43,663 nucleotides of DNA from positions 1 to 43,663 of the IMG/VR virus record IMGVR_UViG_3300022821_000036; one strand, given 5' to 3'. Below the pieces are notes generated by a model. The model was not told where the DNA came from and ran no database searches. It saw only the letters and a program-made list of their open reading frames with translations. A program made the translations under genes and the position numbers. The DNA comes from a virus. This document shows, in pieces, positions 1-43,663 of the stretch; positions within the stretch are counted from its first letter, which is position 1, and the number at the start of each line of letters is the position of its first letter.

Positions 1-384
1 CACCTCTGTTCTACTTCCCACATCTCCTACCCTATCAGTATTGTCTGCATGAGCAGAATCGTAATATAAGTATACTTCTGTGTTTGCGTCTGCGTCTAAT
101 ACCCAATCACTTTTAGATACCCAAAGTACAGCAGTTTCGTTAGCATCATCCCACTTCTCTATTTCTACATAAAGCTCTGTTGTCCCATCAGTTTTCGTTA
201 CTGCTATCTTTAACCTATTCGCATCACTTGTAAGCTCGTCAAAAACAAAACTCACATCATTATTGCCAGTTCCTACTGAAGTTCCTAGGGTAAGTAATAA
301 AGGAAAGTGCGTTTGGTCAGCATCTATGTTTGTATTAGACGCTGTTACTTTAACTCTATGTGCGTATGTGCCAAGCCATGCCAT
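1..384 (-). CDS. DUF2341-like fibre protein, N-terminal part (cut by window start)
   Basis: The gene starts with ATG at 384, a few bases after the stop of the small membrane gene, and runs off the left end. It begins MAWLGTYAHRVKVTASN and continues with a beta-rich domain of the DUF2341 type found at the N-terminus of LamG surface and fibre proteins (motifs NETAVLWV and VYLYYDSAHADN). Bases 22-143 are identical to 43542-43663. Joined through that repeat, this part plus the right-end fragment gives exactly 436 codons. Bases 1-21 stay in frame but encode a different continuation (VGSRTEV instead of TNSVVAESVW). That could be a population variant at the assembly end or a second, paralogous fibre gene. 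The likely role is host or surface binding at the virion. Confidence 0.75.
   Translation of the reverse strand, partial: MAWLGTYAHRVKVTASNTNIDADQTHFPLLLTLGTSVGTGNNDVSFVFDELTSDANRLKIAVTKTDGTTELYVEIEKWDDANETAVLWVSKSDWVLDADANTEVYLYYDSAHADNTDRVGDVGSRTEV
22..143. repeat. 122-bp exact repeat, left copy (circular closure)
   Basis: This stretch is identical to 43542-43663. It lies inside the DUF2341 coding region. The likeliest meaning is the overlap of a circular, or circularly permuted, genome, because joining here restores one full gene and a continuous late operon. The 21 bases outside it (1-21) do not match the right end. Confidence 0.9.
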
Positions 385-385
385 G

Positions 386-484
386 TTATTTTAAGTAAAT
401 CAATACTAATAAAATTATCACTGCCAATCCCCATATACCAAATGGGATTAATTCTTTATGTAGTCCCTCTTTCCAGTGAATCAT
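386..484 (-). CDS. 32-residue single-span membrane protein
   Basis: This short gene begins MIHWKEGLHKELIPFG and continues with one hydrophobic helix (GLAVIILLVLIY, about residues 19-30). It fits tightly between the 214-residue gene upstream (stop at 487) and the DUF2341 fibre gene downstream (start at 384), which supports it being real. Function is unknown. A small membrane protein in a late operon could assist lysis or entry, but nothing here shows that. Confidence 0.55.
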   Translation of the reverse strand: MIHWKEGLHKELIPFGIWGLAVIILLVLIYLK

Positions 485-486
485 AT

Positions 487-1131
487 TTATTTATCGAATA
501 ATTTTATATTACCATTTGGCTCTATGATAACTGCTATCTTCTTTTTGTCTTGAGTTTCATATCCAAGCACAAACCTATTATAAAATGTAAATTCATCTAG
601 CATGTCTACAAATTCCTTGATCTCGTTGTTTGCGCTACCATGTGTTGACCCAATTCTTTTTCTTGTAAATAATATTAGCTTTTTATCGCTATTTATTTCA
701 TTGATGCAACACTCGGCTTTTACTTCTTGTGAAGCATATCCATTAAGAAAACTAAATAAGCCAGTATTCATATCAAGTTTTACTATAACCCTTTTTTCTT
801 CATTATCTGTGGGCCATACGAAATTTGATATATATGAAACTGACTTTACGTTTTCTAAATCTATGTGAGAGAAATTATGAATTGCTCCGTCGTCGAATTG
901 TTTCAAGGACTTACCATCCTTGTATTCTACTATCCATTCAAATTCTAGATTAGATAAGTTGAATTCTTTTAGGTATTTATTAAATGATTCCGGGATCATT
1001 ATCTCTCCGGTACTTTGTTTTCCTATTTTAACTCCAAGATCTATGAGCTGTTTTGTCGAATTTGAATAATCATACATCCCGTTTTGACGAGTTTGTAATA
1101 GTTTGTCTATGCTTGTATTTTGTATATCCAT
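487..1131 (-). CDS. Unknown late protein, 214 residues
   Basis: I do not recognise a family. The protein is soluble, mixed alpha/beta, with no signal peptide or membrane segment. It has aromatic and charged stretches (FEWIVEYKDGKSLKQF; FTFYNRFVLGYE) and ends NGNIKLFDK. It sits in the late operon between small virion proteins and the fibre genes, so an accessory virion or fibre-associated role is possible. A gap of about 90 bases separates it from the next gene upstream. That gap has one T-run and no convincing promoter. Confidence 0.7.
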   Translation of the reverse strand: MDIQNTSIDKLLQTRQNGMYDYSNSTKQLIDLGVKIGKQSTGEIMIPESFNKYLKEFNLSNLEFEWIVEYKDGKSLKQFDDGAIHNFSHIDLENVKSVSYISNFVWPTDNEEKRVIVKLDMNTGLFSFLNGYASQEVKAECCINEINSDKKLILFTRKRIGSTHGSANNEIKEFVDMLDEFTFYNRFVLGYETQDKKKIAVIIEPNGNIKLFDK

Positions 1132-1768: not shown

Positions 1769-2044
1769 TTAGTTTAACTCTAGATAGCACTTGCCATTCG
1801 TTCCTATCACCTTGACGTGCATTCCTTTATCAAATCTTATCCCTTCAAATTGGTGCTGGATTGACGTTCCAGACGCTCCAATCATTTCTATGACTACATC
1901 ACCCGAGGCATAGCCATCCCTAATGGTAACGGTACACGCTGAAACTGCTTTCAAACTCACGCTCTCGACCACCTGTGGTTGAGCTGATGTGAAAACCTGT
2001 TTGCCTACCGCTGCACTTACTGTGACTTCTTTTAATACACTCAT
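1769..2044 (-). CDS. Small beta-structured virion protein, 91 residues
   Basis: The sequence alternates beta-strand-like segments (VSLKAVSACTVTIRDG; VIEMIGASGTSIQHQF; MHVKVIGTNGKCYLELN), like small phage head-fibre or decoration proteins. Its start overlaps the TGA stop of the upstream glycosyltransferase as ATGA, so translation is probably coupled. No specific family was recognised. Confidence 0.6.
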   Translation of the reverse strand: MSVLKEVTVSAAVGKQVFTSAQPQVVESVSLKAVSACTVTIRDGYASGDVVIEMIGASGTSIQHQFEGIRFDKGMHVKVIGTNGKCYLELN

Positions 2045-3252
2045 TTTTTTATATTATTTAATCTTTCATAGCGCTGTATAATTTGCATATATGCGTCATG
2101 ATATAAATTAATGTTATCGGCAATCCATTTACTGGAGATCCAATTCTTATTTCTCCTTACGATGTCTTGCCTTTTTTTAGGATTTTCGACCAGATCCTTG
2201 ATATGATTATACCACTCATCAAAGCTTTTTGCTAACAATACATCGCACCCGTCATCTTTGGCCTCTGAGTAAGGAACAACGTCTGATGCAACTATAGGAT
2301 ATCCAATGGCTGAATATTCTCTCAACTTCAGGTCTGACTTACAGTTACCGAATGATTCATTTACTACTGGAGCTAAGGCAATATCCCATCCATGACTTGC
2401 TAATACAACTGGATAATTGTCAATAGACTCTCCCATCCATGTCACAGAATCTCCCTGATATCCACACTGTGGGCAATTATCATGAAATTCTTCTAATCCG
2501 TCAAATACTCCTTTTAGTTCGTGCTTAACCATTCCCATCGTCTCAAACTTTATTTTGCCTTTATATTCTCTAACAATTTTCTCAATTACTTTTGAAATCA
2601 TTTTAAGGTCATCAATGTGAGCGTTTCCTCCTGCCCATCCGATCCTAATATATCCATCGCTTTTTTTGGTTAGTTGTTGCTCCCAGTTACTTTCATTTAA
2701 GAAATTAGGAAGAACGTATATGTTTTTATTACGCGTGAATAGTTCTCTGGCTAATTGTGGAGTAGAAACAGTTACGGCTGACGCAGCTAAAACCTGTTTT
2801 GTAAATCTATGTATAAATAATGTTCCTGGGTTCCATGCACCATAACCGCCTTCATTGTTTGGTGATACTTTATAAAGAAAATCATCACACTCTACTACTA
2901 CTGGTTTCTTATTCTCTATTGCAAAATTCATTGCCTCAATCGATGCACTAGATCCAGTTTCTTGAAATACAACTAAATCAGCTTGAATTATGTGTTCTCT
3001 AGTTGTTGTCTTGAAATCCGTGATCGTGTTCATTAGTCCCATTGTTCTTAGAAATGAGGCTGGCTGTACGCATCTATAAAAACCGCAACCTCCTTTATCT
3101 CTAATTACAAATAATACTGTTTTTAACTCCTTATTGAATTCTATCTTTGTTGGATCTACTTCTGTGACATCTTTTTTCTGTGTTTGAACTTGTTCTGTTG
3201 GTCCATCTGCCCCAGCGAATTTTATTGTTTTCATTGGTTTTATTTCTGGCAT
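2041..3252 (-). CDS. Glycosyltransferase, GT4-like (403 residues)
   Basis: This is a glycosyltransferase with the two-domain GT-B layout. The N-terminal half begins its fold at about residue 45 with VLFVIRDKGGCGFYRCVQP, a pattern seen in phage and metagenomic GT4-type enzymes. The C-terminal half has RIGWAGGNAHIDDL (about residue 203) and a nucleotide-sugar-domain end (LREYSAIGYPIVASD, then DVLLAKSFDEWY). The first 40 residues are a charged extension. It is one of three transferases lying between the capsid and fibre genes, together with a methyltransferase-like gene, so it may sugar-modify a virion protein or host surface glycan. Donor and acceptor cannot be read from sequence. Its TGA stop overlaps the next start. 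Confidence 0.82.
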   Translation of the reverse strand: MPEIKPMKTIKFAGADGPTEQVQTQKKDVTEVDPTKIEFNKELKTVLFVIRDKGGCGFYRCVQPASFLRTMGLMNTITDFKTTTREHIIQADLVVFQETGSSASIEAMNFAIENKKPVVVECDDFLYKVSPNNEGGYGAWNPGTLFIHRFTKQVLAASAVTVSTPQLARELFTRNKNIYVLPNFLNESNWEQQLTKKSDGYIRIGWAGGNAHIDDLKMISKVIEKIVREYKGKIKFETMGMVKHELKGVFDGLEEFHDNCPQCGYQGDSVTWMGESIDNYPVVLASHGWDIALAPVVNESFGNCKSDLKLREYSAIGYPIVASDVVPYSEAKDDGCDVLLAKSFDEWYNHIKDLVENPKKRQDIVRRNKNWISSKWIADNINLYHDAYMQIIQRYERLNNIKK

Positions 3253-3254
3253 AG

Positions 3255-3719
3255 TTATTTTTTAGATTTTTTAGCAGATACTATTACTTCGTAATGCTCT
3301 TTTTTGAATTGAATCCCATCAAACCACGATCGTTGATCTTTCTCGGGGAATCCAGCGCTTCCTAGCAATGTAACTATATCTATCGAATTAAAATATGTCT
3401 TTCTTCTGAAGTCTCTATTAAACTCTTCGAGCGATAAATCTCCTCCAAGATACGCTCTATTTATATAATCGAAATCATGCTCGATTATATATAATTCTCC
3501 TTCTGGTTCTAGGATATCGAAGAAGTTTTTTATCATCGGTACAACTTCGTGTGGTTCTGCAAGACCTAGGATGTTAAAAGCATAGATTGTCTTAACCGAA
3601 GAAGCTCTCATATCTAATTTCTTGCGTGGATCCATAACTAGGTCTACTTCTGATCCAGGTTCGAACCACACAGATATTGCTTCTTCTACTTTTTTTACTG
3701 GTGTTATTTGTATTTTCAT
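3255..3719 (-). CDS. SAM-methyltransferase-like protein, shortened
   Basis: The 154-residue protein matches the second half of class I methyltransferases. It has a strand-helix-strand pattern around MRASSVKTIYAFNILGLAEP and then ILEPEGELYIIEHDFDY (about residues 88-104), which corresponds to the usual conclusion-of-cycle step LKPGG-hydrophobic strand. The glycine-rich SAM-binding motif I expected at the N-terminus is not visible, so it may be degenerate or non-catalytic. It lies between a glycosyltransferase and an amidase and is close-packed with both. Methylation of a sugar or virion component is an inference only. Confidence 0.6.
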   Translation of the reverse strand: MKIQITPVKKVEEAISVWFEPGSEVDLVMDPRKKLDMRASSVKTIYAFNILGLAEPHEVVPMIKNFFDILEPEGELYIIEHDFDYINRAYLGGDLSLEEFNRDFRRKTYFNSIDIVTLLGSAGFPEKDQRSWFDGIQFKKEHYEVIVSAKKSKK

Positions 3720-3721
3720 AT

Positions 3722-4225
3722 TTATGATTGGTTTCCTATATTATTAACGTAATTTTTGTATAGCCATACTGGCGTAATTACGTTGCTACAGAAATTATTT
3801 TTGTCAAAAAACTTATGATTATAATTGTCTTCTTGTCTTAGATTAAACCTTTCCATTAGGGCGTTGTACACCATAGCAGTGTTGTCTTTGATGGCTTGAT
3901 CGGTTGGTGGTTTGTCGAAATATCTCCCGACGATTTCTACTCCGATACTATTCTTATTTCCCTTTGGACCAGCGTGAGTTCCTTGCTTACCGATCGGCGT
4001 GAAGAGCCATATTCCATCTGGTGCAATAAAGATGTGTGGTCCTGACTTCCAACCCTTCGACTCGTATAAATTATAATAATGAAGCATTGATGCCGAACCA
4101 TCCCAGATCTTTATCGGGGACGAGGTGTGATGATAAACAACCTTGTCGATTCTGCGCTTCACCTTTAAGGTATTGATATAATCCCTGAACTGTTCTTGGT
4201 TCAATCTTTTGTTTAATATTTTCAT
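3722..4225 (-). CDS. N-acetylmuramoyl-L-alanine amidase (PGRP/Amidase_2 fold)
   Basis: This is a 167-residue peptidoglycan amidase, expected to cut between N-acetylmuramic acid and L-alanine. Family landmarks are VVYHHTSSP (zinc ligand at His32 or His33), GPHIFIAPDG (about 62-71), GTHAG (82-86) and NSIGVEIVG (92-100). The C-terminal ligand pair is probably His137 and Cys146 (NHKFFDKNNFCSN). There is no signal peptide or separate wall-binding domain. It sits among glycosyltransferases rather than next to the small membrane proteins at 35.8-37.6 kb, so it could be a virion-associated lysin for entry as well as a classical endolysin. Confidence 0.88.
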   Translation of the reverse strand: MKILNKRLNQEQFRDYINTLKVKRRIDKVVYHHTSSPIKIWDGSASMLHYYNLYESKGWKSGPHIFIAPDGIWLFTPIGKQGTHAGPKGNKNSIGVEIVGRYFDKPPTDQAIKDNTAMVYNALMERFNLRQEDNYNHKFFDKNNFCSNVITPVWLYKNYVNNIGNQS

Positions 4226-4226
4226 A

Positions 4227-4991
4227 TTAATTTTTGCCGTAAGTTTGGTTCTCTAAAGAAAAACCTTCTTCACGACCTGATAAAACATCGTTAAATTTTA
4301 TAAGTTTATTTCCGAAATCAGATTTGAAATCTTTCTTGATTGCCTTATCTCTCCTTTCCTTCCATTTCGCTGCATATTTTGGCCAGAAGTCTATATAATA
4401 ATCACATGTTTCTTGCCAATGCTTTACAGATAATCCTTTTCCAAAATGTTTGACAATTCCAGATACGATAATCATTGGTGCTGGAGGAAGGTCAACAACT
4501 CTCTGATCTGGCTTATCGTATTTAAGATAGGCTGAGTTTTTGAAGAAAAAAGGAATCGTTCTAAATTCTGGACCAACCCAATTTCTTTTATTATGATTTT
4601 CTTTTACATCCTCGGGCGTTATATATATATCATATAACTTGCATGCTATCGCATCTATTCCTTCCTCGAAGAAATAATTCCAGTCCCAGAAAAATAACCT
4701 TTCATCTGCGTCGAAATAAACAAACCAATCGCCTTCCTCTGCGTCTTGCTGTGCTCGTTCTAGTGCTCTTTGGCGATTAACCCATTCCATCTTTTCTCTG
4801 TCTGGATCCCAGAACTTAGTTATAAGAACGTCTTTTACTGCCGGATGAGCCTTGCATATTTCAACTGTCCTATCGTCAGAAGCATCATCGACTATATAAA
4901 TTCCTCCTGAACAATAAGAAGCCCAATGATCAAGAGTCTCCTTGATTATTTGTTGTTCATTCCTCACCTTGCAAATGCCAAAAATTTTCAT
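4227..4991 (-). CDS. Family 2 glycosyltransferase (GT-A fold)
   Basis: The 254-residue enzyme starts with the GT2 nucleotide-binding core: MKIFGICKVRNEQQIIKETL, then GGIYIVDDASDDRTVEI (about residues 29-45). It has a metal-binding DxD in VYFDADERLF (Asp94, Asp96). This is the arrangement of glycan-decorating GT2 enzymes that hold a sugar nucleotide with a divalent metal. Its start overlaps the upstream GT4 gene stop as ATGA. Together with its two GT neighbours it probably builds or caps a short glycan; the acceptor is unknown. Confidence 0.88.
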   Translation of the reverse strand: MKIFGICKVRNEQQIIKETLDHWASYCSGGIYIVDDASDDRTVEICKAHPAVKDVLITKFWDPDREKMEWVNRQRALERAQQDAEEGDWFVYFDADERLFFWDWNYFFEEGIDAIACKLYDIYITPEDVKENHNKRNWVGPEFRTIPFFFKNSAYLKYDKPDQRVVDLPPAPMIIVSGIVKHFGKGLSVKHWQETCDYYIDFWPKYAAKWKERRDKAIKKDFKSDFGNKLIKFNDVLSGREEGFSLENQTYGKN

Positions 4992-5980
4992 GATATTAAT
5001 CCTTCAGCAATTTTAATAAGTTCAGCTGCGGCTACCTTGACGTTATGATTTTCTTTCATAATTTTGTGCATAGCATCCACCGTCTTCTGGTTCCACGCTG
5101 CATCTATCTGAGCAATTATTTCTTGTGAAGAAGCAAGGTTATTGTTTGATTTCCATCCTCTGCCACTACAATTGGTTCTAACGAGGTTTTTATAGTTCTC
5201 TGGCGTAATTGCTCCTCCAGTACCCCAACGTCCATGAATGACCCCAATCTTGCCCATGCAGACGCCTTCTAAAACTGATCTACCCATGCCAAAAACTATG
5301 TCTGCATCTTTTATTACCTGATCTACTTCAAATGTTGGAGCGAAGTTAGCGCCAATGCCCATGAACTTTGCATCGTAGTGATCTGCAACTTCCTTAATGA
5401 TTTTATTTATATCATCATCGGCTCCCCAATAATTAGAATTAACGAGAATTGTTTTTGGTTTTTTTGGCAACTTGCCAACCTTCTTAAACCTATCCAGGTC
5501 GAAGAAATTCCTAAGTAACTTAGATTGAATTCCGTACACTTCCAATAAGAGATCCTGGACTTCTTCTGATACAGCAATATATTGATCTACCTTAAATTCT
5601 GTTACTGGATGTTCTGGAAACATTTCGCCAGTCTCTGGATGCTTGTGCATTATTCCATGAACTACTGCGATCATAGGAACGTCTGGAAACTTGCTATGAA
5701 GAAACTTCGTTATCTCGTGATGAGCACAAATTACAACGTCGAATGTTCCTTCTTTTTCTTCAAAAATAGGAGAGAATGGTTTTATTCCATTATTGTCTCC
5801 AGTCATATCCTTAACGCACTTGACTCCTAATCCTTCTAGCTTTGTGGCTACGAGTCCAAGATCTTGACTATAAGCAGTTACTTCATGCCCTAATTTAACT
5901 AATTCTGTGGCTAGGGTGAGCATCCACATTTCTGATCCTGCCAGCCAGTTAAATGTATTATTTCCTAATAGTATTTTCAT
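4988..5980 (-). CDS. Glycosyltransferase, GT4-like (330 residues)
   Basis: The N-terminal GT-B domain is recognisable from MKILLGNNTFNWLAGSEMW, followed by LATELVKLGHEVTAYSQ, the common GT4 opening. The second domain has PKTILVNSNYWGADDDINK and IKDADIVFGMGRSVLEGVCMG, where the acidic residue and following glycines correspond to the donor-binding helix. It is the first gene after the strong hairpin that follows the capsid genes, so its expression probably depends on read-through or a separate weak signal. Its TGA stop overlaps the GT2 start. Confidence 0.83.
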   Translation of the reverse strand: MKILLGNNTFNWLAGSEMWMLTLATELVKLGHEVTAYSQDLGLVATKLEGLGVKCVKDMTGDNNGIKPFSPIFEEKEGTFDVVICAHHEITKFLHSKFPDVPMIAVVHGIMHKHPETGEMFPEHPVTEFKVDQYIAVSEEVQDLLLEVYGIQSKLLRNFFDLDRFKKVGKLPKKPKTILVNSNYWGADDDINKIIKEVADHYDAKFMGIGANFAPTFEVDQVIKDADIVFGMGRSVLEGVCMGKIGVIHGRWGTGGAITPENYKNLVRTNCSGRGWKSNNNLASSQEIIAQIDAAWNQKTVDAMHKIMKENHNVKVAAAELIKIAEGLIS

Positions 5981-8669: not shown

Positions 8670-11600
8670 CTATTGATTCATTGGGTACATTAAATTAAAG
8701 TATTTTATTTTTAGATCTGCTGGCAATCGATCGAAGATTCTAGAGTCGAGTTCTTCTCTATATGATCTCAATGATTGCTGAACGTCTGGAATATATAGAT
8801 TGTTATCTATTATTATTTTATTGAACTTATCGTAGTCTCCATCCATATAGGCATTCATCGCTTCGTTCATTCTGTTGGCTCTTTCTTCTGTGCCCTTCTT
8901 GATTATATCAATTTTTTCTGATTGTTTTGCTGCTTCTTCTGGGCTAAATCCGGCAGTTACTTTAAGAAGTTCTGCAAAGTCAACAAATCTTATAGCCTTT
9001 CCAGATGTCTGAGCATATAGCATGAATGGTCTATCTGGGTCTGTTGATGGATTAGTCCCGGCTTCAAATCTCTTTACTGATCTATAAAAGTTTTGGAGTT
9101 TTTGAGACTGGACTCCAAATGCTATTCCTCCATAGATTTTCATCGTACTTGTTATATCTTTCCATGCTTTATTAACATCATCATCAATATTATTTAATGC
9201 AGAACTCATTGCTCCGACTCCAGTAGCCATCATCTTTCCTAAAGGACCGAATCCAAATCCTCCCATCGGTCCAATGACTGCCCACTTAGAAGCATCAATT
9301 CCTAACGTCTCTTCAGCTGTTCTTTTGACTGCGGTTCCTGCCGCATACCATCTTATTAATTTGTCCCATTGACGACGAGATATCCATTTTTTTAATGTAT
9401 TGGCATATTCAAATCCCCATTGTGTAAATTGCAATGCCACTTTACCGCCTAGCCCATAATGGAATCTTGACTCTGATCCTTTCCTGTATGGAAATTGTGT
9501 ATCATCTATCTTATCCTGAATCATCATGTTCAAGGCTTCTTTAACCGCAGTTTTATCTCCGTCTATTCCTTCAAGAAGTCTTTTTCTTACCATATCTTGT
9601 AATACTGGATTGAAACCATCTAGATTGATATTTTTCTCAAAATCTTCGTAACTTATTTTGCCACTCCTCACTAATTCCCAGTTTTCGTCAAATCTTCCTT
9701 TTGTAGAAAAGTATGCTTGGGTTCTATTCGTTGTATCTCTTGATGCGTAAGGTATTAACGTGGCTGCATTTATCTTTTTTACTGCATCGACAGATTTACC
9801 GACAACACCTTTTCCTTCTGCTGCAAATACTTCTGATCCGTATGGTACACCACTTTGAACCAAAAATCCGGCTTCTCTTACTTCTTGTTTTCCTCCAGGT
9901 TCAAGTGCTTTTTTAACACCATAAGCATACCATTTTGGTCCAAACTCAGGATAGTTCATTAATGGACTTTGCATTGAATTCCTAACTACTGGCATTGGTC
10001 TTCCACCAAGTGCCCCAGCATAAGAAAGTGACATTGCTGCATCGATTGATTGTTTTCCTACATTTTCTGGAATATGTCCATTCGTTAGCTTGCTAACTTT
10101 TTGACTAAGTTTGTCTAATAAAAATGTTAAGTTATCTTTATATCCAAGTTTTTCTTGTAAATAACTAAGCGCGTTTTTTCTAATATAGTTAGGTGCTTCG
10201 TCTATAACATTCTTCGCGTTTTCAACTGGCTCTGCAAGAAAGATTTTCTTTGCAGTGGCGCCCATGTATACATCGAATAATGCTAGTGCATTATCTTCTA
10301 CATGACTAAGCATTCCAGTTCTTTCGAAAGAGAAAAATGGTCTAAGCTCTGCTGGAAGTTCATTTGATTTATATCTACTATAGGTTCCTCCAGTTCTGGC
10401 CAGAGATGGTCCATATTCGCCAAAAAACTCTCCAAGATCTAACTCTTTTCCATAGAGTTTTTTCATTATTAAATATTGCTCTTTGTATTGCTTTATAAAC
10501 CAGTCTCCGATCTCTGATAATTCTGCTTTTTGTATATCCGTAAGCCTATCGTTTTGTAATACAGTATCTTTGTTTCCCCTCACATAATCATCGACAAGTC
10601 TCATTTCTTCTGTATTATTTCCATGCTTCCCGGTGACTTCTCGTGCCGCGGCTTTCCATCTATCTGTAAAAACTTTAACTTGTCTTGTTGCAAGTTCTAT
10701 CGGCATAAAAACTTCAGAATATACTGGTACTCCAAGTTCTTGTTCCGCCGCAGCCATCCAATCTCTTGTCCTGCTTACCCATGGACGAACCATGAAAGCT
10801 TTCTCAAGGTCTGGAGACGTTGGGGTAGTATCGTTGAATGCAAGAATAGCTTCAGAAACTTTATAGGCTTCATCTTGATCTAGTTCGTGCAAGCTATCTT
10901 TCCCAGTCATTACCTTGACTGTTGCGCGAATTATTACGTCTGGCAAACTTCGATCAACTGCTAAAGCCTGTATTTGTCCAATCTGCTTCTTAGTAACAAC
11001 TTTATTATTAAAGCCTTTCAGTGGCTTTGACATTACTGATGGAATAATTCTTTCGCTATGTGGCGTTACTGGTTTTGATCCTGCGATTGTTGCTGTTCCG
11101 GTTGTTTCTTGTCCTGGTAATTGTTGAAGGCCTGTTCCACCTCCTGTTGGATCTGTTGAGGAGATTTCCCCTCCGTCGATATTAGCGATATTAGTCTCTT
11201 TGGCATGTAATTTTGTAAAAACAGTTTCAAATTTTTCTAAGTCAAATACTCCAAGTTGCCCAGCACTTTCAGCTTCAGTTATAGTTTCTGGCGTAGCTGG
11301 ACCAACTTTTGATATGTCTAAATATATTTCTCCATCTTCTTCCCATGTCCCTATATGATTCCCTGGCTCTAGGAGTTTCGGAAGGTTGGTTTGTATGAAA
11401 GATGTCACGGCTCCTTTGGTAAATGTTTCCACTGGAACCTTTGTTTCGAGTCCTTTGTATGGAGAATAAGCATATCCTTTTACTGGGACGTCTCCAGATA
11501 GATTGATAGTGACTCCTTTATTTTCAACTGTACTTTTATATGCTAAATCTCTAACGCCTTGATATTCTGGAGCAAGTCCAGCTCCTTGAGTTAATCCTGT

Positions 11601-13031
11601 TGCTAATTGAGTATTGTCGATAATTGGTGATACTTCTGAGACTTGTGGTTCTGTATATCCAAGACTCGTTAATGATCTGGCGATATCTTGAGTTGCTCCA
11701 ATGCTTCCGTCTGGTCCAGCAACTTGCATTATCGAATCGATTGCAGATTTGCCAGTAATTCCTTCTGGTAAATTTTCTACAGCTTCAATTCCAAGAGATT
11801 CTTGTTCTCCTCTATAAATACGATTCAATTCGTTATAGGCATTTACTTCTACCGGTGCATCTTGAGGAAATGTATTTACTCCTTGCTCCGGTACTGCTGG
11901 GCTAGTCACTGCTCCAGGTATTGCGCTGGGTGGCACAATTCCAGAAGTTGCGACTCTTTCAGCTGCGACTTTTGTCACTGCTCCAGCTGCTATTCCTCCG
12001 GTTGCTTGGGCCGGAGTGACTGCTGCTGGGCTGATTGGGTTTGCTGTTGTAATTGCCCCAGTTGATTGCGAAGTATTCTTAACAATAGTTTCCAGTCTTA
12101 TTTCAGTTCCGTACTGTCCTGTGGTTACGTTTGATTTACCGAATTTCTTCACGAAAAAATCTTTTGCTGTTTTTGCAACAGATCCTTTTATATCAACGAG
12201 AGTATATTCTACTTGTCCTTGTCCTACTGGAGTTCTTTTTATCGCAGTATTTTTAGCAACTTTAACATATGTTGATTGTTGATTCTGTACTCCAGTTCCA
12301 AATTTTTGTGTTGCGGTTGGATCAATCTTAGTTTCTATTTTAGACTTGAGAGTTTGTTTTGAAACAAAACGATCTGTATTTTTTTGTGTTATGGTTTTTG
12401 TCCCAGGAGACTTAACTAATCTTTCCTGAAATGCAGATGACCCTAATTGAAACATCGAATAAAGGATTGCCAAATCACCGGATGTTTCCCCTGTTGCTTT
12501 AATTGCTGATGATACTTTTCCAAGGCCCATTTCCCGTCCTTCTGCATATGATCCTCCAAATCCTCTAACCTCACCAAGCCATGGTAAATTATAGCTCATA
12601 CCGATTCCTTCTTCTCGATATATATCTTTTGCTGTACGATTTTTATCTAACGAAGCTCTTCCTCCAACCGATATATCATATAAGGTTTGTGCTACCTTGA
12701 ATGGAACTTTTAGTAAAGATTTTCCAATCATTGGTCCTTTATCTTTAAGCTGTTCGTTCTTCCATTCCATTTTTTCGAATTGACCCATCTGATCCCAGTT
12801 TTCTGGAGTTTCTCCTTCTATGTTAGAAACAAGTTCTTCTCCAATATAATCATACCAGTGCGTTCCTTTGTCTTCCTGAACTGGAGCTTGCTGTGCTATA
12901 TTTACTTGATTGTCTCTTACTTGCTGAAAAAGATCAGATTGGTTTCCTTGATCTGTCTGTGCTTTATCTATTGGTTGACTCTGTTGCGGTTGAACAGAAT
13001 ACTCTGGTGAATATATATCTTCTCTTGGCAT
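8670..13031 (-). CDS. Very large virion protein (1453 residues), possible ejection protein
   Basis: This is the largest gene. The N-terminal 100 residues are Gln/Pro-rich and polar. A long low-complexity Ala/Thr/Pro/Val middle (about 330-480) follows, then helical segments in the second half (RTRDWMAAAEQELGVPVYSE; LVDDYVRGNKDTVLQNDR; AMSLSYAGALGGRPMPVVRN) and a Gly-rich hydrophobic patch (WAVIGPMGGFGFGPLGKMM). It lies between the portal group and the scaffold, with no separate tape-measure gene visible. Large, mostly helical proteins here are typical of internal or ejected proteins of short-tailed phages. No transglycosylase or polymerase motif was identified. The role is inferred from size and context. 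Confidence 0.7.
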   Translation of the reverse strand: MPREDIYSPEYSVQPQQSQPIDKAQTDQGNQSDLFQQVRDNQVNIAQQAPVQEDKGTHWYDYIGEELVSNIEGETPENWDQMGQFEKMEWKNEQLKDKGPMIGKSLLKVPFKVAQTLYDISVGGRASLDKNRTAKDIYREEGIGMSYNLPWLGEVRGFGGSYAEGREMGLGKVSSAIKATGETSGDLAILYSMFQLGSSAFQERLVKSPGTKTITQKNTDRFVSKQTLKSKIETKIDPTATQKFGTGVQNQQSTYVKVAKNTAIKRTPVGQGQVEYTLVDIKGSVAKTAKDFFVKKFGKSNVTTGQYGTEIRLETIVKNTSQSTGAITTANPISPAAVTPAQATGGIAAGAVTKVAAERVATSGIVPPSAIPGAVTSPAVPEQGVNTFPQDAPVEVNAYNELNRIYRGEQESLGIEAVENLPEGITGKSAIDSIMQVAGPDGSIGATQDIARSLTSLGYTEPQVSEVSPIIDNTQLATGLTQGAGLAPEYQGVRDLAYKSTVENKGVTINLSGDVPVKGYAYSPYKGLETKVPVETFTKGAVTSFIQTNLPKLLEPGNHIGTWEEDGEIYLDISKVGPATPETITEAESAGQLGVFDLEKFETVFTKLHAKETNIANIDGGEISSTDPTGGGTGLQQLPGQETTGTATIAGSKPVTPHSERIIPSVMSKPLKGFNNKVVTKKQIGQIQALAVDRSLPDVIIRATVKVMTGKDSLHELDQDEAYKVSEAILAFNDTTPTSPDLEKAFMVRPWVSRTRDWMAAAEQELGVPVYSEVFMPIELATRQVKVFTDRWKAAAREVTGKHGNNTEEMRLVDDYVRGNKDTVLQNDRLTDIQKAELSEIGDWFIKQYKEQYLIMKKLYGKELDLGEFFGEYGPSLARTGGTYSRYKSNELPAELRPFFSFERTGMLSHVEDNALALFDVYMGATAKKIFLAEPVENAKNVIDEAPNYIRKNALSYLQEKLGYKDNLTFLLDKLSQKVSKLTNGHIPENVGKQSIDAAMSLSYAGALGGRPMPVVRNSMQSPLMNYPEFGPKWYAYGVKKALEPGGKQEVREAGFLVQSGVPYGSEVFAAEGKGVVGKSVDAVKKINAATLIPYASRDTTNRTQAYFSTKGRFDENWELVRSGKISYEDFEKNINLDGFNPVLQDMVRKRLLEGIDGDKTAVKEALNMMIQDKIDDTQFPYRKGSESRFHYGLGGKVALQFTQWGFEYANTLKKWISRRQWDKLIRWYAAGTAVKRTAEETLGIDASKWAVIGPMGGFGFGPLGKMMATGVGAMSSALNNIDDDVNKAWKDITSTMKIYGGIAFGVQSQKLQNFYRSVKRFEAGTNPSTDPDRPFMLYAQTSGKAIRFVDFAELLKVTAGFSPEEAAKQSEKIDIIKKGTEERANRMNEAMNAYMDGDYDKFNKIIIDNNLYIPDVQQSLRSYREELDSRIFDRLPADLKIKYFNLMYPMNQ

Positions 13032-30344: not shown

Positions 30345-30548
30345 ATGGCAACTAAGACACGAAAGATAATAACTAGAAATAATGGGACAAATCTCATGGA
30401 TTTATTAAGTGATAAATCTCTGAAGGCGTTAAGCAAGTTCGGTCATGTATATTGCGATCCTTACTCAGGACGTAACCGTATTCGTGTTTATAACAAGCCA
30501 AACAAACAAAATGTCATTAATAATTCCACTACTAGACGAGTCAATTAA
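30345..30548 (+). CDS. Small basic early protein, 67 residues
   Basis: Starts MATKTRKIITRNNGTNLMDL; basic, with the ending KQNVINNSTTRRVN. The ATG at 30345 is preferred over an ATG at 30327, which overlaps the -10. It overlaps the nuclease gene start by 38 bases in another frame. Function unknown. Confidence 0.5.
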   Translation: MATKTRKIITRNNGTNLMDLLSDKSLKALSKFGHVYCDPYSGRNRIRVYNKPNKQNVINNSTTRRVN

Positions 30549-31428
30549 ATTATCGAGAAACGAAGAATATCTTGGCAAAAAGAAGTCAACCTTCTGGGCC
30601 TCTGAGTCAGAGATCATGGCCTTTGAGATCTTCCATAGGTGGATAGGAACTAAGCCTACCAATCCTATAAGTGAAGAGAAGCTTATGATGTTAAAGATGC
30701 GCAAGCTTACGGAAGAAGCCGTTATTCTCTTCCTAAGAAAGTCCGGAAAACTTATAGAAAGATTTTCCAATGACGAGAGATGTTTTTTCGAATGGGGCAA
30801 ACACAAGGTCCCGATCTCTGGATATCCTGATGCAGGAATAGAGATAAACGGCGAAGAAATCATTGTAGAAGTAAAAACGTATTACGGAGGATTTCAGCAT
30901 AGCAGGGTACGGATAGGAGATGTAAAGACATCTTATCTGTCTCAGTTAGCTATCTATCTATATCACTTAAAGATCAAGCGAGGAATTCTATTAATGATTA
31001 ATCAAGGTACTGGCGAGCGATATGAGTACGACTTGTATCAAACTGGAGACAATCCTCATCACTTTATCTGTCCCGACAATACGGTTGAGATAGATCTAGA
31101 ACGAGTCTTTAAGAGATTCGAGAAGATCTGGATTGAGAACGTCAAGCCAGGAATAGAACCAAAAATAGAATACCTATATAAATATCCTGTTGATAAGATT
31201 AATTGGGATAATGTATCATCCTCTATAATCTCTAAGGCGCGAAACGATAAATCTGTTCACGGAGATTGGCAAATCAAGTACAGTGACTTCAAAGACATGA
31301 TTGTTAAGAAGCAAGGAACGTGCCTAGGATATTCAGAAAAAGAGCTAGAGATAATTAGAAAAGTAACCACTGGATATTCTACTCGTAAAAAGAATCAAGT
31401 AAGATTCGATCCGAGCGAATTAAAATAA
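30511..31428 (+). CDS. RecB-type PD-(D/E)XK nuclease
   Basis: The 305-residue protein has the nuclease core SGYPDAGIEI (Asp107), EEIIVEVKTYYGG (Glu120-x-Lys122) and the RecB/Cas4-type helix motif SQLAIYLYHL (QxxxY, 145-149). This set marks a metal-dependent exonuclease of the RecB, Cas4 or YqaJ kind. No Cys cluster for an iron-sulfur centre is evident, which argues against a true Cas4. Near the SMC-like ATPase gene at 32218 it likely forms a recombination or DNA-processing pair. The start at MSLIIPLLDES was chosen over an upstream in-frame ATG. Confidence 0.82.
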   Translation: MSLIIPLLDESIKLSRNEEYLGKKKSTFWASESEIMAFEIFHRWIGTKPTNPISEEKLMMLKMRKLTEEAVILFLRKSGKLIERFSNDERCFFEWGKHKVPISGYPDAGIEINGEEIIVEVKTYYGGFQHSRVRIGDVKTSYLSQLAIYLYHLKIKRGILLMINQGTGERYEYDLYQTGDNPHHFICPDNTVEIDLERVFKRFEKIWIENVKPGIEPKIEYLYKYPVDKINWDNVSSSIISKARNDKSVHGDWQIKYSDFKDMIVKKQGTCLGYSEKELEIIRKVTTGYSTRKKNQVRFDPSELK

Positions 31429-31429
31429 C

Positions 31430-31606
31430 ATGACTAAAGAAAAGATAATACAATACAGACCAATCAATAGAAAAAGGCGTATTAAATGTGGAAGATGGAC
31501 TTGGTCTACAACATGTCCAGCGCATTTACCAATGACACTCCAAAGATTGGGACATAAAATAGATATTATAGAAGGATTTGAAGTTATTAAATCTAAGATT
31601 AAATAA
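31430..31606 (+). CDS. Small basic protein, 58 residues
   Basis: Reads MTKEKIIQYRPINRKRRIKC, then GRWTWSTTCPAHLPMTLQRL, and ends EVIKSKIK. It has two Cys and many basic residues, so binding nucleic acid is possible. It starts a few bases after the nuclease stop. Confidence 0.5.
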   Translation: MTKEKIIQYRPINRKRRIKCGRWTWSTTCPAHLPMTLQRLGHKIDIIEGFEVIKSKIK

Positions 31607-31620
31607 ACATAACGGAATCT

Positions 31621-31824
31621 ATGAACCATAAACAAAAACTAAAGCTTGCTAGGCGATTGAGGGGTAGTGAAGAAACAAAGCACAATGTTCCGGTGTTTCA
31701 ATCGAAAGCATGGAATGAAAGAAAAACCGCTATCCAAGAAAAAGTTGAGCGTAAGATAAAAAAGCGCCGAAAAAAAATGAGAAAAAAGCAAAATAAAAAC
31801 AAACAAAATTTATGGAGAAAATAA
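31621..31824 (+). CDS. Very basic small protein, 67 residues
   Basis: Starts MNHKQKLKLARRLRGSEETK and ends in a dense run of Lys and Arg. It overlaps the KTSC gene by 13 bases. The composition fits an RNA- or DNA-binding peptide; function unknown. Confidence 0.5.
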   Translation: MNHKQKLKLARRLRGSEETKHNVPVFQSKAWNERKTAIQEKVERKIKKRRKKMRKKQNKNKQNLWRK

Positions 31825-32051
31825 AACATCATTCAGTAGTATCGTCAAACATTCAATCAGCTGGATATGACGAGACAAGCAGAAGTCTTGAGATAACATT
31901 TAGTAATGGATCTACTTATAGATATGACGAAATTCCACGTTATATTTATGAAGGTATCTTTAAGTCTGATTCTCCCGGTGGATTTGTCCAGAAGTGGATT
32001 GTTAGGGGTAAGTATAAGAACAAAAAACTTGGAGCTAAACCAAAAAAATAA
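31812..32051 (+). CDS. KTSC-domain protein
   Basis: The 79-residue protein matches the KTSC domain: SSNIQSAGYDETSRSLEITF, then NGSTYRYDEIPRYIYEGIF and a Gly-rich end. KTSC domains occur alone in phages and next to lysyl-tRNA synthetase or nucleic-acid proteins; the biochemical role is unclear. The whole domain is present. Confidence 0.85.
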   Translation: MEKIKHHSVVSSNIQSAGYDETSRSLEITFSNGSTYRYDEIPRYIYEGIFKSDSPGGFVQKWIVRGKYKNKKLGAKPKK

Positions 32052-32052
32052 C

Positions 32053-32217
32053 ATGAAGCTATATTACCTAATACCGCTTATTATCTTAGCTGAAATGATA
32101 ATTACATTTATCTCTCTAAGTTATAGCAGAAAAAGGATAGAAGTTGCTTTCATGTTTTGTATCGCTAACATCATATCTGCACTATTGGTCTTGATGATTA
32201 TATTAAAAACAACTTAA
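32053..32217 (+). CDS. Two-span membrane protein, 54 residues
   Basis: MKLYYLIPLIILAEMIITFI is a first span, then SYSRKRIEVAF and a second span (CIANIISALLVLMIIL). The ATG follows the KTSC stop by one base; its own stop touches the ATPase ATG. Function unknown. Confidence 0.6.
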   Translation: MKLYYLIPLIILAEMIITFISLSYSRKRIEVAFMFCIANIISALLVLMIILKTT

Positions 32218-33405
32218 ATGAAAATTATAGAATTAAAATCAAATAACATTAAAAAATTGAAGGCCGTTGAGCTAAAGCTTGACGAGAATAAAAATGTCAT
32301 ATTAGTCACTGGAAAGAATGGTCAAGGAAAGACTTCGGTTCTAGACTCAATATGGTACGCGCTGGGTGGCAAGAAAGCTGCACAGCAAAAGCCAATCCGT
32401 GATGGCGAAGAGAAGGCCGAGATCGAAATAGATCTAGATGGATATATCGTAAAGAGAACATTCACTGAAAGCGGTTCATATCTATCTGTTACGAATGGCG
32501 AAGGATCTAAATATAGCAATCCACAGGAATTCCTTGATTATGTGGTTGGAAGCTTATCGTTTGATCCTCTGGAGTTTTCAAGGCTCGACAATAAAAAACA
32601 AGTTGACGAGCTTACAAGAGTCGTTGGGCTTGATCTCTCACCGTTAGATGAAAAGAAGAAGGAACTTACCCAGGATAGATTATTAGTTGGTAGACAAATA
32701 AAAGCCATGCCAACAAGATTACCTGAATCAATTCAGGAATCGCAAAAAATATTAAAGGAAAATCCCAAGATTCCGTCCATGCAAGAGCTTGTATCAAAAT
32801 TTAATGACGCCAGTGCTGAAGTAAGTAATTACGAGCGCGCACTTAAAGCTATTAAGGAACAAGAACTTTATGTTAAAGATGCTCGTTCAGCGATAGTAAA
32901 CCTTAAAAAAGTAAAGAAACCTTTACATGACTTAACTGCCATGAAAGATGAGATTAGTAACATACAATCTCTTAGCGAGCAGATAGTAAGCTCTAGGCAG
33001 GTCGTTGAAGATGCTGATAAAATAGATAAGGCCAAGAGCGAATACGATAAGCTTACTAGGGTTATTGCTGGTATTGATAAAGAGAAAAAGGATAAGCTAT
33101 CGAAAGTAAAGATGCCTGTAAGTGGGCTTAGTTGGGAAGAAGACGGGGTTTTGTACAATAACATTCCTTATAGTCAAATATCCGCAGCTGAACAACTAAG
33201 AGTATCAATGGCCATCGCAATGGCTAGTAATCCAAAGCTCAAAGTCATTCTGATCAGAGACGGCTCTCTCCTCGATAGCGATAATATGAAAGTTATAGAA
33301 AGCATGGCTAAAGATAAGGATTGGCAAGTTTGGATCGAACGAGTTGATAATTCCGGTAAAGTCGGAATATTTATGGAAGATGGCGAGATTAAAAAGATTA
33401 ATTAA
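32218..33405 (+). CDS. SMC/RecF-like ATPase, 395 residues
   Basis: The N-terminus has the ABC-type opening KNVILVTGKNGQGKTSVLDS with Walker A at about 32-39. A helical coiled-coil centre follows (LTQDRLLVGRQIKAMP; YERALKAIKEQELYVKD). The C-terminal half has the signature-like QISAAEQLRVSMAIAMA (about 317-333) and a Walker B-like LKVILIRDGSLLD. This is the compact phage form of Rad50/SMC-type ATPases. With the RecB-type nuclease at 30511 it likely handles DNA ends during replication or recombination. Confidence 0.85.
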   Translation: MKIIELKSNNIKKLKAVELKLDENKNVILVTGKNGQGKTSVLDSIWYALGGKKAAQQKPIRDGEEKAEIEIDLDGYIVKRTFTESGSYLSVTNGEGSKYSNPQEFLDYVVGSLSFDPLEFSRLDNKKQVDELTRVVGLDLSPLDEKKKELTQDRLLVGRQIKAMPTRLPESIQESQKILKENPKIPSMQELVSKFNDASAEVSNYERALKAIKEQELYVKDARSAIVNLKKVKKPLHDLTAMKDEISNIQSLSEQIVSSRQVVEDADKIDKAKSEYDKLTRVIAGIDKEKKDKLSKVKMPVSGLSWEEDGVLYNNIPYSQISAAEQLRVSMAIAMASNPKLKVILIRDGSLLDSDNMKVIESMAKDKDWQVWIERVDNSGKVGIFMEDGEIKKIN

Positions 33406-39710: not shown

Positions 39711-40553
39711 TTAGAAAATATAACCTCCTCCATTGATATAGTATGGTATCTCTGAAGCAGGCATAACAGGTTTTAGTGTCTTCTTTAGGTTTTCGTACAT
39801 TGATTCATTGTCATTTGCCAATATGCGCAAATGAGCCATTGAAAGATGTCCTTCTTCAACTGTTGCGTTTCCTTGAAGAGCGATCTTACTAGCCATCGAT
39901 CTATGAAAGTTAGCTCCAGATTTAAGCTCTAGTAATTCTAGCCAGTTATTTTCTACATCTAGTACATCGGTAACTGCTGTCGGTCTAGTGATTCTTCTTA
40001 AATATGAAATAAGAAGATAATTTGCAGTTGTTGGTTTACCGCCAATAATTAATTTATTAGAGCGACGATCGTATCTTTTATTTATTGATAACTTTGTCCA
40101 TGAACCAGAAGTTGTGTGATTGTCAGACTGCAAAACTTCAGTAAGTCTGATACATGTTGATGGGCAATTATACGCTTGTATATTCGCAGATAAGGTCATT
40201 GCTGTCGGATCACCAACTACTGATTTATAGAATTGATCTCCTAATGAATCTACAGAACTTTGAATAGTCTCGAGCCAATGCTGATCTCTAAACTTGACTT
40301 CTTGATATTGTGGTTTTATAACAGCGCTCGTTGCAGACTGTAATACCAAATCACCAGTATCTAAATCTATCGAATATCCACTCGCAGCCTGAAGTGCATT
40401 ATTAATATATAACTTAAAGCTTCCCTCTTTAATTGGAGCGAATTTTGTCTTATAAATTGTTGACGAACCATCGCCGGTCCTTATATCTTCATGCTTGACA
40501 GGCAGGTCGTGGTATCTTCTCCTTAAAACGGAGATAAATGCAGATGTTATCAT
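39711..40553 (-). CDS. Tail or fibre-associated protein, 280 residues
   Basis: N-terminal beta region (GSFKLYINNALQAASGYSID; SGTSS-type loops) and a helical second half (LLELKSGANFHRSMASKIAL; LRILANDNESMYENLKKTLK). It lies between the two largest tail genes. No family recognised; a connector or tail role is inferred. Confidence 0.65.
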   Translation of the reverse strand: MITSAFISVLRRRYHDLPVKHEDIRTGDGSSTIYKTKFAPIKEGSFKLYINNALQAASGYSIDLDTGDLVLQSATSAVIKPQYQEVKFRDQHWLETIQSSVDSLGDQFYKSVVGDPTAMTLSANIQAYNCPSTCIRLTEVLQSDNHTTSGSWTKLSINKRYDRRSNKLIIGGKPTTANYLLISYLRRITRPTAVTDVLDVENNWLELLELKSGANFHRSMASKIALQGNATVEEGHLSMAHLRILANDNESMYENLKKTLKPVMPASEIPYYINGGGYIF

Positions 40554-40555
40554 AT

Positions 40556-42592
40556 TTATAATATTCTATTATCATCTAAAGATACTATTCCATTTTGATC
40601 GTTTCCGTCCATTGCAAAATCCTCATCACTTCTCATTGCAAAATCATCTTCCCCTTTCATTGTAACATATCCTTGTCTGAAAGCCCATATACTTGCCTTA
40701 GCGGTAATCGTTCTTATTACTCCTTCTTGCTCTATTCGCCCTCTAGACATAGCGGTTGATATGTTGCCTAGAGTTAATATGCGACTCTTGGCTTGGATGG
40801 TTTTTAATATACTTACACTTTCTATTCTAGCCTTTGCCTGAATTTCTACCGATTGATCTGCTACTTTTACGCGTCCTTTAGCTTGAGCTGTAGCTGATTG
40901 ATCTTCTACTTTTACGCTCCCCTTAGCTTGAATCGTTTTTATGTTTAGTGCCTCGACTCTAGCCTTCGCTTGAGATGTGGCGGATTGATCTAGTTGTTTA
41001 ATGTCAGCCTTCGTCTGAACTGTTCCAGAAACTCCTGATTGTTCTATCCTTCCTTTTGCTTGAATTGTTGCTGATTGATCTACTGTTCTAATGCGTCCTT
41101 TAGCTTGGATCGTCTTCACGTCAAAAGACTCGATATTGGCTCTAGCTTGAGCTGTGGCCGATTGTCCAAACTTTTTAATATCTCCTTTTGCTTGAGTGGT
41201 TTTAATGTTTGACGATTCGATTCTAGCCTTAGCTTGAGCTGTGGCCGAAACTCCTGATTGTTCTATCCTTCCTTTTGCTTGAATTTCTACCGATTGATCT
41301 ACTATTTTAACGCGCCCTTTCGCTTGAGTGGTTTTTAAGTTTAATGCCTCGATTCTAGCTTTAGCTTGGGCTGTCTGCGATTTATCTGCTATTTCAATGC
41401 GTCCTTTAGTTTGTGATGTTTGCGAGACTGCAATGTGTTTAATATCGGCCTTCGCTTGTAAGGTCTTTAGGTTCAGAGACTCAATTCTAGCCTTCGCTTG
41501 TAAGGTCTTTAGGTTTGATAATTCAATTCTAGCCTTGGCCTGAGCTGTTTGCGATTGATCTGCTACTTTTACGCGTCCTTTAGCTTGTAAGGTCTTTAGG
41601 TTTGATAATTCAATTCTAGCCTTGGCCTGAGCTGTTTGCGAGACTGCAATGTGTTTGATATCGGCCATAGTCTGAACTGTTGCCGACTGTCCGAACTTTT
41701 TAATATCTCCCTTTGCCTGGATGCCCTTAATACTTGAAGATCCTATTCGTGCTTTAGATTGAATCGTTTTTGTTTCGATCGTCTTAACTCGTCCTTTTGA
41801 CTGGATCGTTTCTAGTTGAGACTGGAGTTCTATTCTGGCCTTAGTTTGGGCTGTTTCGGTTTCGATGGTTTTAACGCGCCCTTTCGCTTGAATCGTTTTT
41901 GGTCCACTCTCATTAAGAATATTAGACTTAACCTGAATAGTTTGACTAATATCTTCTGTTTTAACTCTTGCTTTCGCAGATGATATTCCTATTATATCGG
42001 CCTGCTTAACTCTAGCTCTTGCGCCTCTGTCCCCTGCTGACACTATCAACGCCTTCGCGCCCATAGACATAGAAATTCCCGCCTGGCCCATTCTTGCTTT
42101 TGCTGTAACCGTTTTCGTAAGTTCTTCTGTATAATAAACCTTTACTTGAATATGGTCATCGTACACTGTAATCCCGTCCGTACCACTAGCGCTAGTCTGA
42201 AGATACATATAAAAGTTTCCGTCCGAAAAATCTGTTGCTATCCATGTCTTGCTCCACAAATCAGTTGGACCTCCCTCTACCTCCGTGTCTCCTGGAGAGA
42301 CTAGATATGTTTTATATTTTGTACCTGTTCCGGATGCGCTTGTTGAATATATATAATGTGGTAATGAGATTTGAACACTTCCGTAACCCTCAATTGACAT
42401 TTCAATACCATTAATTGTTGCTCCAGCCGGAATGCCAAATGCAAAATCACTATAACTTTGTCTATAAGTAGATCCGTCAGCCATTAGTCTCGTAGCGTAA
42501 TTATTATTACTACTATAAGCATTGGTCGGATTTGTATAGTCGTTATGTGTTCCTCCTGTTGCTGTCGGAGATTTCCAGCCAGTATCGGCCAT
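40556..42592 (-). CDS. Tail fibre with about 30 degenerate 14-15 residue repeats
   Basis: The first 155 residues form a jelly-roll-like domain (NPTNAYSSNNNYATRLMADG; GIPAGATINGIEMSIEGYG). From about 155 to 640 the protein is a tandem array of units like TAQAKARIELSNLK and TIQAKGRVKVADQSA, with conserved T-x-Q-A-K-x-R-I/V. The short C-terminus has DDFAMRSDEDFAMDG. Related units also occur at the end of the DUF2341/LamG gene. The repeats probably form a solenoid or fibrous stalk. DNA copies are similar enough to recombine, giving length variation. Confidence 0.78.
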   Translation of the reverse strand: MADTGWKSPTATGGTHNDYTNPTNAYSSNNNYATRLMADGSTYRQSYSDFAFGIPAGATINGIEMSIEGYGSVQISLPHYIYSTSASGTGTKYKTYLVSPGDTEVEGGPTDLWSKTWIATDFSDGNFYMYLQTSASGTDGITVYDDHIQVKVYYTEELTKTVTAKARMGQAGISMSMGAKALIVSAGDRGARARVKQADIIGISSAKARVKTEDISQTIQVKSNILNESGPKTIQAKGRVKTIETETAQTKARIELQSQLETIQSKGRVKTIETKTIQSKARIGSSSIKGIQAKGDIKKFGQSATVQTMADIKHIAVSQTAQAKARIELSNLKTLQAKGRVKVADQSQTAQAKARIELSNLKTLQAKARIESLNLKTLQAKADIKHIAVSQTSQTKGRIEIADKSQTAQAKARIEALNLKTTQAKGRVKIVDQSVEIQAKGRIEQSGVSATAQAKARIESSNIKTTQAKGDIKKFGQSATAQARANIESFDVKTIQAKGRIRTVDQSATIQAKGRIEQSGVSGTVQTKADIKQLDQSATSQAKARVEALNIKTIQAKGSVKVEDQSATAQAKGRVKVADQSVEIQAKARIESVSILKTIQAKSRILTLGNISTAMSRGRIEQEGVIRTITAKASIWAFRQGYVTMKGEDDFAMRSDEDFAMDGNDQNGIVSLDDNRIL
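40690..42110 (-). repeat. Tandem coding repeats (42-45 bp units)
   Basis: The repeats of the fibre gene are visible in DNA as recurring pieces such as AAGGTCTTTAGGTT and TGATCTGCTACTTTTACGCG. Some neighbouring units are nearly identical, for example around 41450-41540 and 41580-41640. This favours slippage or recombination and can hinder assembly. Confidence 0.85.
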
Positions 42593-42596
42593 ATTA

Positions 42597-43663
42597 TTAT
42601 AGGTAAACTGTTATTGTTTTCTTTATTCTTCCTTGAGTTTGATTAGTTTGTATGTTGTCATTTTGACTCACCCTCGCTTTTGCTTGAGATATTTTCGAAA
42701 TTCCTAATTGCTCTATCCGTCCTTTTGCTTGAGCTGTAGCTGATTGATCGGCTTGAGTAACCCTTGCCTTGACTTGGGATGTTTTAGTGTAAGTTGTTTT
42801 AGATGTCTCTTCACTACCCCAAGCTACTAGAGCATCTGTTTGTGTGTAGTAATTAGCTTTAATATGGGCAGCTGAACGAGCAGCCTTTGAAATTCTTGTT
42901 TCATCTATAGAACCAGTAAAAAATCCTGCATAGTTTCCAGCACCAAAATTATAGCAACCAATGGTTAGATAGTTAGTTGAGTTTATGGTTGCAGTCGTTC
43001 CATCTGTTACCGCCGTTGCCTCAGAAGCTCCATCAAGGTAGAGATATATTTTATCGTCTGTTGTATTCCTCACGCCAGCAAGATAGTGCCAAGAATTGTC
43101 AGTTCTATCAGTAGAACCAGTAATTTTTGTGAAGTCAGCTCCATCAGTCTCTCCACTAAGTCCAAATTCAACATAACCACCTGTCGCTATTTGAAGAAAG
43201 AATAATGGAAAATAATTATCTGCCCCTCCACCACCCTGCCTCAAAAGAACAACATTATCATTGATGTTCCCATTGAACCAAAGCTCAAGGGTCATGTCTT
43301 CAGAAGTAGTAAAGTCAAAGTCAGTAGAATCTGTAATATTTATACGGTCATCACTTCCATCAAAGTCTTGTGCATTTCCAATCTCACCAGTAGTAACGGC
43401 TGGCTCTGCTGCCCCTTTCTTCGTTCCGTCGTTATCATTGCTAGTAGAATCATAGGTAGCCGAAGTTGATGCACCGTCTGCCATGTGCTGAACCATCTTG
43501 AAACTACTATCCCAAACACTCTCTGCAACTACACTATTTGTATCTCCTACCCTATCAGTATTGTCTGCATGAGCAGAATCGTAATATAAGTATACTTCTG
43601 TGTTTGCGTCTGCGTCTAATACCCAATCACTTTTAGATACCCAAAGTACAGCAGTTTCGTTAG
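42597..43663 (-). CDS. DUF2341/LamG fibre protein, C-terminal part (cut by window end)
   Basis: The reading frame stays open to the window end, so the true start lies beyond it; with bases 144-384 it completes a 435-residue protein. Parts are the end of a DUF2341 domain (NETAVLWVSKSDWVLDADAN), the linker FKMVQHMADGASTSATYDST, then a LamG/concanavalin-like domain (DFDGSDDRINITDSTDFDFT; LTIGCYNFGAGNYAGFFTGS; DETRISKAARSAAHIKANYY). It ends with QAKGRIE-type units shared with the next fibre gene. A binding role for host glycans or surface proteins is likely. Confidence 0.82.
   Translation of the reverse strand, partial: NETAVLWVSKSDWVLDADANTEVYLYYDSAHADNTDRVGDTNSVVAESVWDSSFKMVQHMADGASTSATYDSTSNDNDGTKKGAAEPAVTTGEIGNAQDFDGSDDRINITDSTDFDFTTSEDMTLELWFNGNINDNVVLLRQGGGGADNYFPLFFLQIATGGYVEFGLSGETDGADFTKITGSTDRTDNSWHYLAGVRNTTDDKIYLYLDGASEATAVTDGTTATINSTNYLTIGCYNFGAGNYAGFFTGSIDETRISKAARSAAHIKANYYTQTDALVAWGSEETSKTTYTKTSQVKARVTQADQSATAQAKGRIEQLGISKISQAKARVSQNDNIQTNQTQGRIKKTITVYL
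43542..43663. repeat. 122-bp exact repeat, right copy (circular closure)
   Basis: Identical to 22-143. Joined there, the late block is continuous from the small terminase to the HNH gene, and the split fibre gene becomes one frame. Confidence 0.9.

Follow-up and report, generated by a model that had tools for sequence, protein, structure and literature searches.

A divergent contig end reads as a second version of a DUF2341/laminin-G gene in an uncultured tailed phage

The window, that is, the whole 43,663-nt stretch of viral DNA analysed here (IMG/VR record IMGVR_UViG_3300022821_000036), comes from an uncultured SU10-capsid-type tailed phage and is, judged from its sequence, a near-complete, circularly permuted and closing map of 43,520 bp. 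We consider it probable that the assembler broke this circle within a lectin gene in which a conserved N-terminal DUF2341 module is joined at a VGD motif to an exchangeable linker and head, and that the sample held two versions of that gene. Version A (TNSVVAESVWD..., with a laminin-G head) forms the right end of the window and version B (VGSRTEV...) the left end.

The terminal overlap and the circular map

The two ends carry an exact 122-nt direct repeat, positions 22-143 being identical to 43542-43663. Joining 384..144 to 43663..42597 on the minus strand yields 436 codons including the stop (435 residues) with no internal stop codon, so that the initial annotation was right to state that the matching ends restore an intact DUF2341/LamG gene of this length. 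The joined gene consists of the N-terminal DUF2341 module (PF10102; 22..384, start codon at 384) with a laminin-G-like lectin domain behind it. The left copy of the overlap (22..143) encodes, on the minus strand, the end of the module up to ...DNTDRVGD, and the right copy (43542..43663) repeats it on the same strand. Version A then continues (42597..43541, minus strand) with the linker TNSVVAESVWD, the laminin-G-like (concanavalin A-like lectin) domain, a short repeat tail and the stop. The lectin assignment for version A is clear (Laminin_G_3, PF13385; 2e-18, 66.8-67.4 bits against a curated cut-off of 27.6). The 1-384 fragment scores 25.0 bits for PF10102 against a curated cut-off of 23.4, and the joined 435-residue version A scores 17.5 bits across the same residues; as this is under the cut-off, we regard the module as a borderline, divergent member of DUF2341. 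Directly upstream lies a small membrane-protein-like ORF (MIHWKEGLHKELIPFGIWGLAVIILLVLIYLK; 385..483, minus strand), which in a simple motif search was found, among the copies tested, only here and upstream of the copy on contig G008. The next gene (40556..42592, minus strand) combines another head with a long repeat shaft of the QAKARIKQ type behind it, and comparison with relatives shows that the shaft is conserved among them and the heads are not. From its membership of a lectin-like fold family and from its variability, with an unrelated head at the locus in each relative, we infer that the product of the joined gene is a surface-lectin ("fibre") protein whose head would bind the host. Most of the structural genes searched had no functional assignment in PHROGs or Pfam.

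The proposal that the ends close into a circle gains independent support from synteny. A search with the capsid protein identified four relatives of the same genus (72-84% identity), and in G004, G006 and G007, the three with contigs that cover the locus, the genes that flank the junction adjoin each other. The homologue of 487..1131 (minus strand; 49-54% identity in G004-G007) lies on the left and that of 40556-42592 or 39711..40553 on the right (the latter on the minus strand, 42-73% identity in G004, G006 and G007). Since the flanking genes are neighbours in relatives, and G004 and G006 are broken elsewhere (within the homologues of 1769-2044 and of 8670-13031, respectively), the window is best read as a circular map. 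Its closed length of 43.5 kb is slightly above that of the same-genus relatives (42.0-42.8 kb). The terminal overlap by which a circular complete contig is recognised starts, on the left, 21 bases inside the end, and IMG/VR classes the record as 'linear', probably because these 21 extra bases keep the repeat off the very end.

We considered whether the 122-nt overlap could be a biological terminal repeat and rejected this, given that the end overlaps of other circular contigs have much the same length (114, 123, 123 and 127 nt) and that the relatives' breaks lie elsewhere on the map; it looks like an assembler overlap instead. Contig breaks fall within the DUF2341-module gene in 9 of 36 cases against 3.8 expected (P about 0.005), an excess that we take as no more than suggestive: many of the contigs are short, the count includes the window that gave rise to it, and the gene lengths of incomplete cases are assumed. 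As a separate observation, an unrelated 29,980-bp contig (G003, loci L034/L035) is also broken within its DUF2341/laminin-G gene and has an exact 123-nt end overlap.

Several other features of the map deserve mention in their own right. Three glycosyltransferase-like genes (2041-5980) adjoin the structural genes and are conserved in relatives, as are a Cas4-like exonuclease gene and the SMC/AAA-type ATPase gene that follows it (30445-33405), which are possibly a recombination pair. An RNA ligase gene (PF09414; 26804-27463) has no match in the contigs compared for synteny. Between 26081 and 28075, a motif around AATTAACTTAGTAATAT occurs six times just upstream of small plus-strand genes; it may serve as a phage-specific promoter for early genes or as a translation signal.

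The linker at the left end

Bases 1-21 differ from 43521-43541 and yet remain in frame, as had been noted at the outset and as translation of both junction versions confirms: ...DNTDRVGD is followed by VGSRTEV at the left end and by TNSVVAESVWDSSF at the right. With the N-terminal module as query, 35 loci were recovered, in which a DNTxYVGD motif precedes a short linker that usually leads into VWDxxF. Most of these linkers are of a long type (TNSVVAES, TNDVVAEN, IGSTPGHN and others), and the version A linker, TNSVVAESVWD, recurs at locus L051 (contig G001). In three other viral contigs (L048, L050 and L052) the same position is occupied by an xGxRTEVWDSNF linker, reading SGSRTE, AGGRTE and SGSRTE, each followed by VWDSNF and two residues shorter than the long type. 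Version B (1..21, minus strand) provides the first seven codons, VGSRTEV, of an alternative linker and head of this kind, and six of the seven residues are identical to L048 and L052. The window covers no more than these 21 bases of version B, and the shorter linker of B makes a residue-for-residue comparison of A with B unsuitable in the alignment. Of 400,000 random 21-mers with the base composition of the window, not one fitted any known linker as well. The presence of the same linker type in three other viral contigs strongly supports a genuine coding variant: the left end is where a real allele of the gene family begins, and not a sequencing error.

Errors tend to accumulate at the ends of contigs, and the 21 bases, which lie at one, might be a chimeric join, adapter or error sequence; but they keep the reading frame and coincide with a genuine linker type at precisely the expected place, which makes such an artefact very unlikely. 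A search allowing up to 3 mismatches found these bases nowhere else in the window, and so they were not copied from another part of the contig. Exact searches of other viral contigs gave no match to the B junction as a 32-mer (in IMG/VR, from which records very near the window may have been omitted) or to the shared N-terminal DNA as a 30-mer; the lack of a second contig with the B junction weighs against the two-version reading.

Surface-lectin genes are typical targets of programmed diversification, by a diversity-generating retroelement or an invertible cassette for example, and we asked whether this could account for two versions. No reverse transcriptase (PF00078) is present in the window or in G004-G007, with positive controls, which speaks against a retroelement. 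The variants differ by linker length, not by adenine-directed substitution, and among the inverted repeats listed none around the junction is capable of a switch. We judge such a mechanism to be extremely improbable.

Exchange of heads on a conserved module

Modular inheritance shows in L048, on the 12,255-bp contig G008, which is the closest relative of the window's N-terminal module (88% identity) and matches the remainder at about 33%. At the DNA level, the two are 90% identical over gene positions 225-344, the 120 nt before the junction, and about 65% identical beyond it. As no further protein of the window matches G008 (12.3 kb), the module is common to phages that are otherwise unrelated. 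Across 26 relatives, identity in the N-terminal part shows no correlation with identity in the C-terminal part (rho 0.09 over 325 pairs, which are not independent). Within the genus, the heads at the same locus are also unrelated: glycine-rich in G004, laminin-G without DUF2341 in G006, repeat-type in G007 and of another kind again in G005. In this last contig, a same-genus fragment with its different fibre gene at the locus (L045/L046, 21100-24276), the end of the contig falls inside a further gene of near-identical repeats. Taken together, these comparisons point to a recognition gene built by exchange of heads on conserved parts. The initial annotation had offered two readings of the difference, a mixed population with variable receptor-binding linkers or a second paralogue. 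The coding variant itself holds, its linker being found in three contigs, but variation confined to the linker does not fit so well; the split in identity between G008 and the window suggests that what varies is probably the whole lectin head behind the linker.

We therefore prefer a model in which versions A and B have the N-terminal module in common over at least 122 bases, after which they diverge. When phages recombine inside this conserved module, the heads would likely be swapped, and with them, presumably, the glycan that is bound. Faced with this fork and unable to choose a path, the assembler would have followed B for 21 bases at one end of the contig and, at the other, would have halted after 122 bases of the shared part. 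The coexistence of A and B as alleles in one phage population, their origin by recombination and this behaviour of the assembler are all inferred from the contigs, and the pattern would look the same if another phage had at least 122 nt of the module in common with this one.

The two versions could instead belong to tandem paralogues in one genome, a B-headed and an A-headed DUF2341 copy with at least 122 identical bases, the stretch between them being missing from the assembly. In favour of this, the neighbouring window genes 42597-43541 and 40556-42592 resemble each other in their type of repeat tail and differ in their heads, and of the 35 contigs with the module two are clearly multi-copy (G017 with four copies and G022 with seven) and a third, G036, may carry two copies. 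However, 30 of the 35 contigs have a single match and two more (G028 and G034) have two partial matches in what is apparently one gene, the same-genus relatives have no DUF2341 copy, and the three that span the locus have one repeat-tailed fibre gene each. The closed map, moreover, is already slightly longer than those of the relatives. We regard paralogues as unlikely and favour a mixed population, on the grounds that most contigs have one copy and that the window has no second one.

More tentatively, DUF2341 modules may act as a common socket across many unrelated phages and archaeal viruses, with VGD as the usual splice point, and our sample may have caught one phage with two heads. This broader view is a possibility to which we give less weight than to the mixed population itself.

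Relation to known systems

If two heads on one phage proves true, DUF2341/laminin-G genes would be a simple marker of head exchange across very different phages. The case also illustrates how a short run of unexpected sequence at a viral contig end can turn out to be a genuine second allele of a recognition gene, and how such a run can conceal from end-repeat detection that the genome is circular and complete. A literature search on DUF2341 in phages found nothing useful. In general terms the gene is a further example of known host-recognition module swapping, found here in an uncultured phage group with the DUF2341 module as the constant part.

In phage host-recognition genes the N-termini are conserved and the recognition parts are variable and under-recruit reads (PMC3909814). 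The metaviromic islands of that study resemble our locus in that a tail-fibre or lectin gene has a conserved N-terminal part and a recognition part that changes from one co-occurring lineage to another. They differ in that our case is deduced from relatives and from a contig that failed to join, and not from the recruitment of reads, and in that the gene concerned encodes a DUF2341/laminin-G protein in an uncultured phage of the SU10-capsid type. Host-recognition modules are also common to distantly related phages, as work on Alteromonas phages describes (PMC10579305). The Alteromonas tail-fibre modules are like ours in that a host-recognition module occurs in otherwise unrelated phages, and unlike ours in that the window shares with G008 only the N-terminal module and the small upstream ORF, not the head. 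The nearest isolate records with a DUF2341 module are archaeal viruses, Methanoculleus virus Blf4 and a matching record, L4768. In Blf4 (QXM18650.1), a DUF2341-like segment is 48% identical to query residues 27-126 and is followed by DYVGD and a VWD linker, the same order of elements as in the window; Blf4 is, however, a different, archaeal siphovirus and has another domain after the lectin part.
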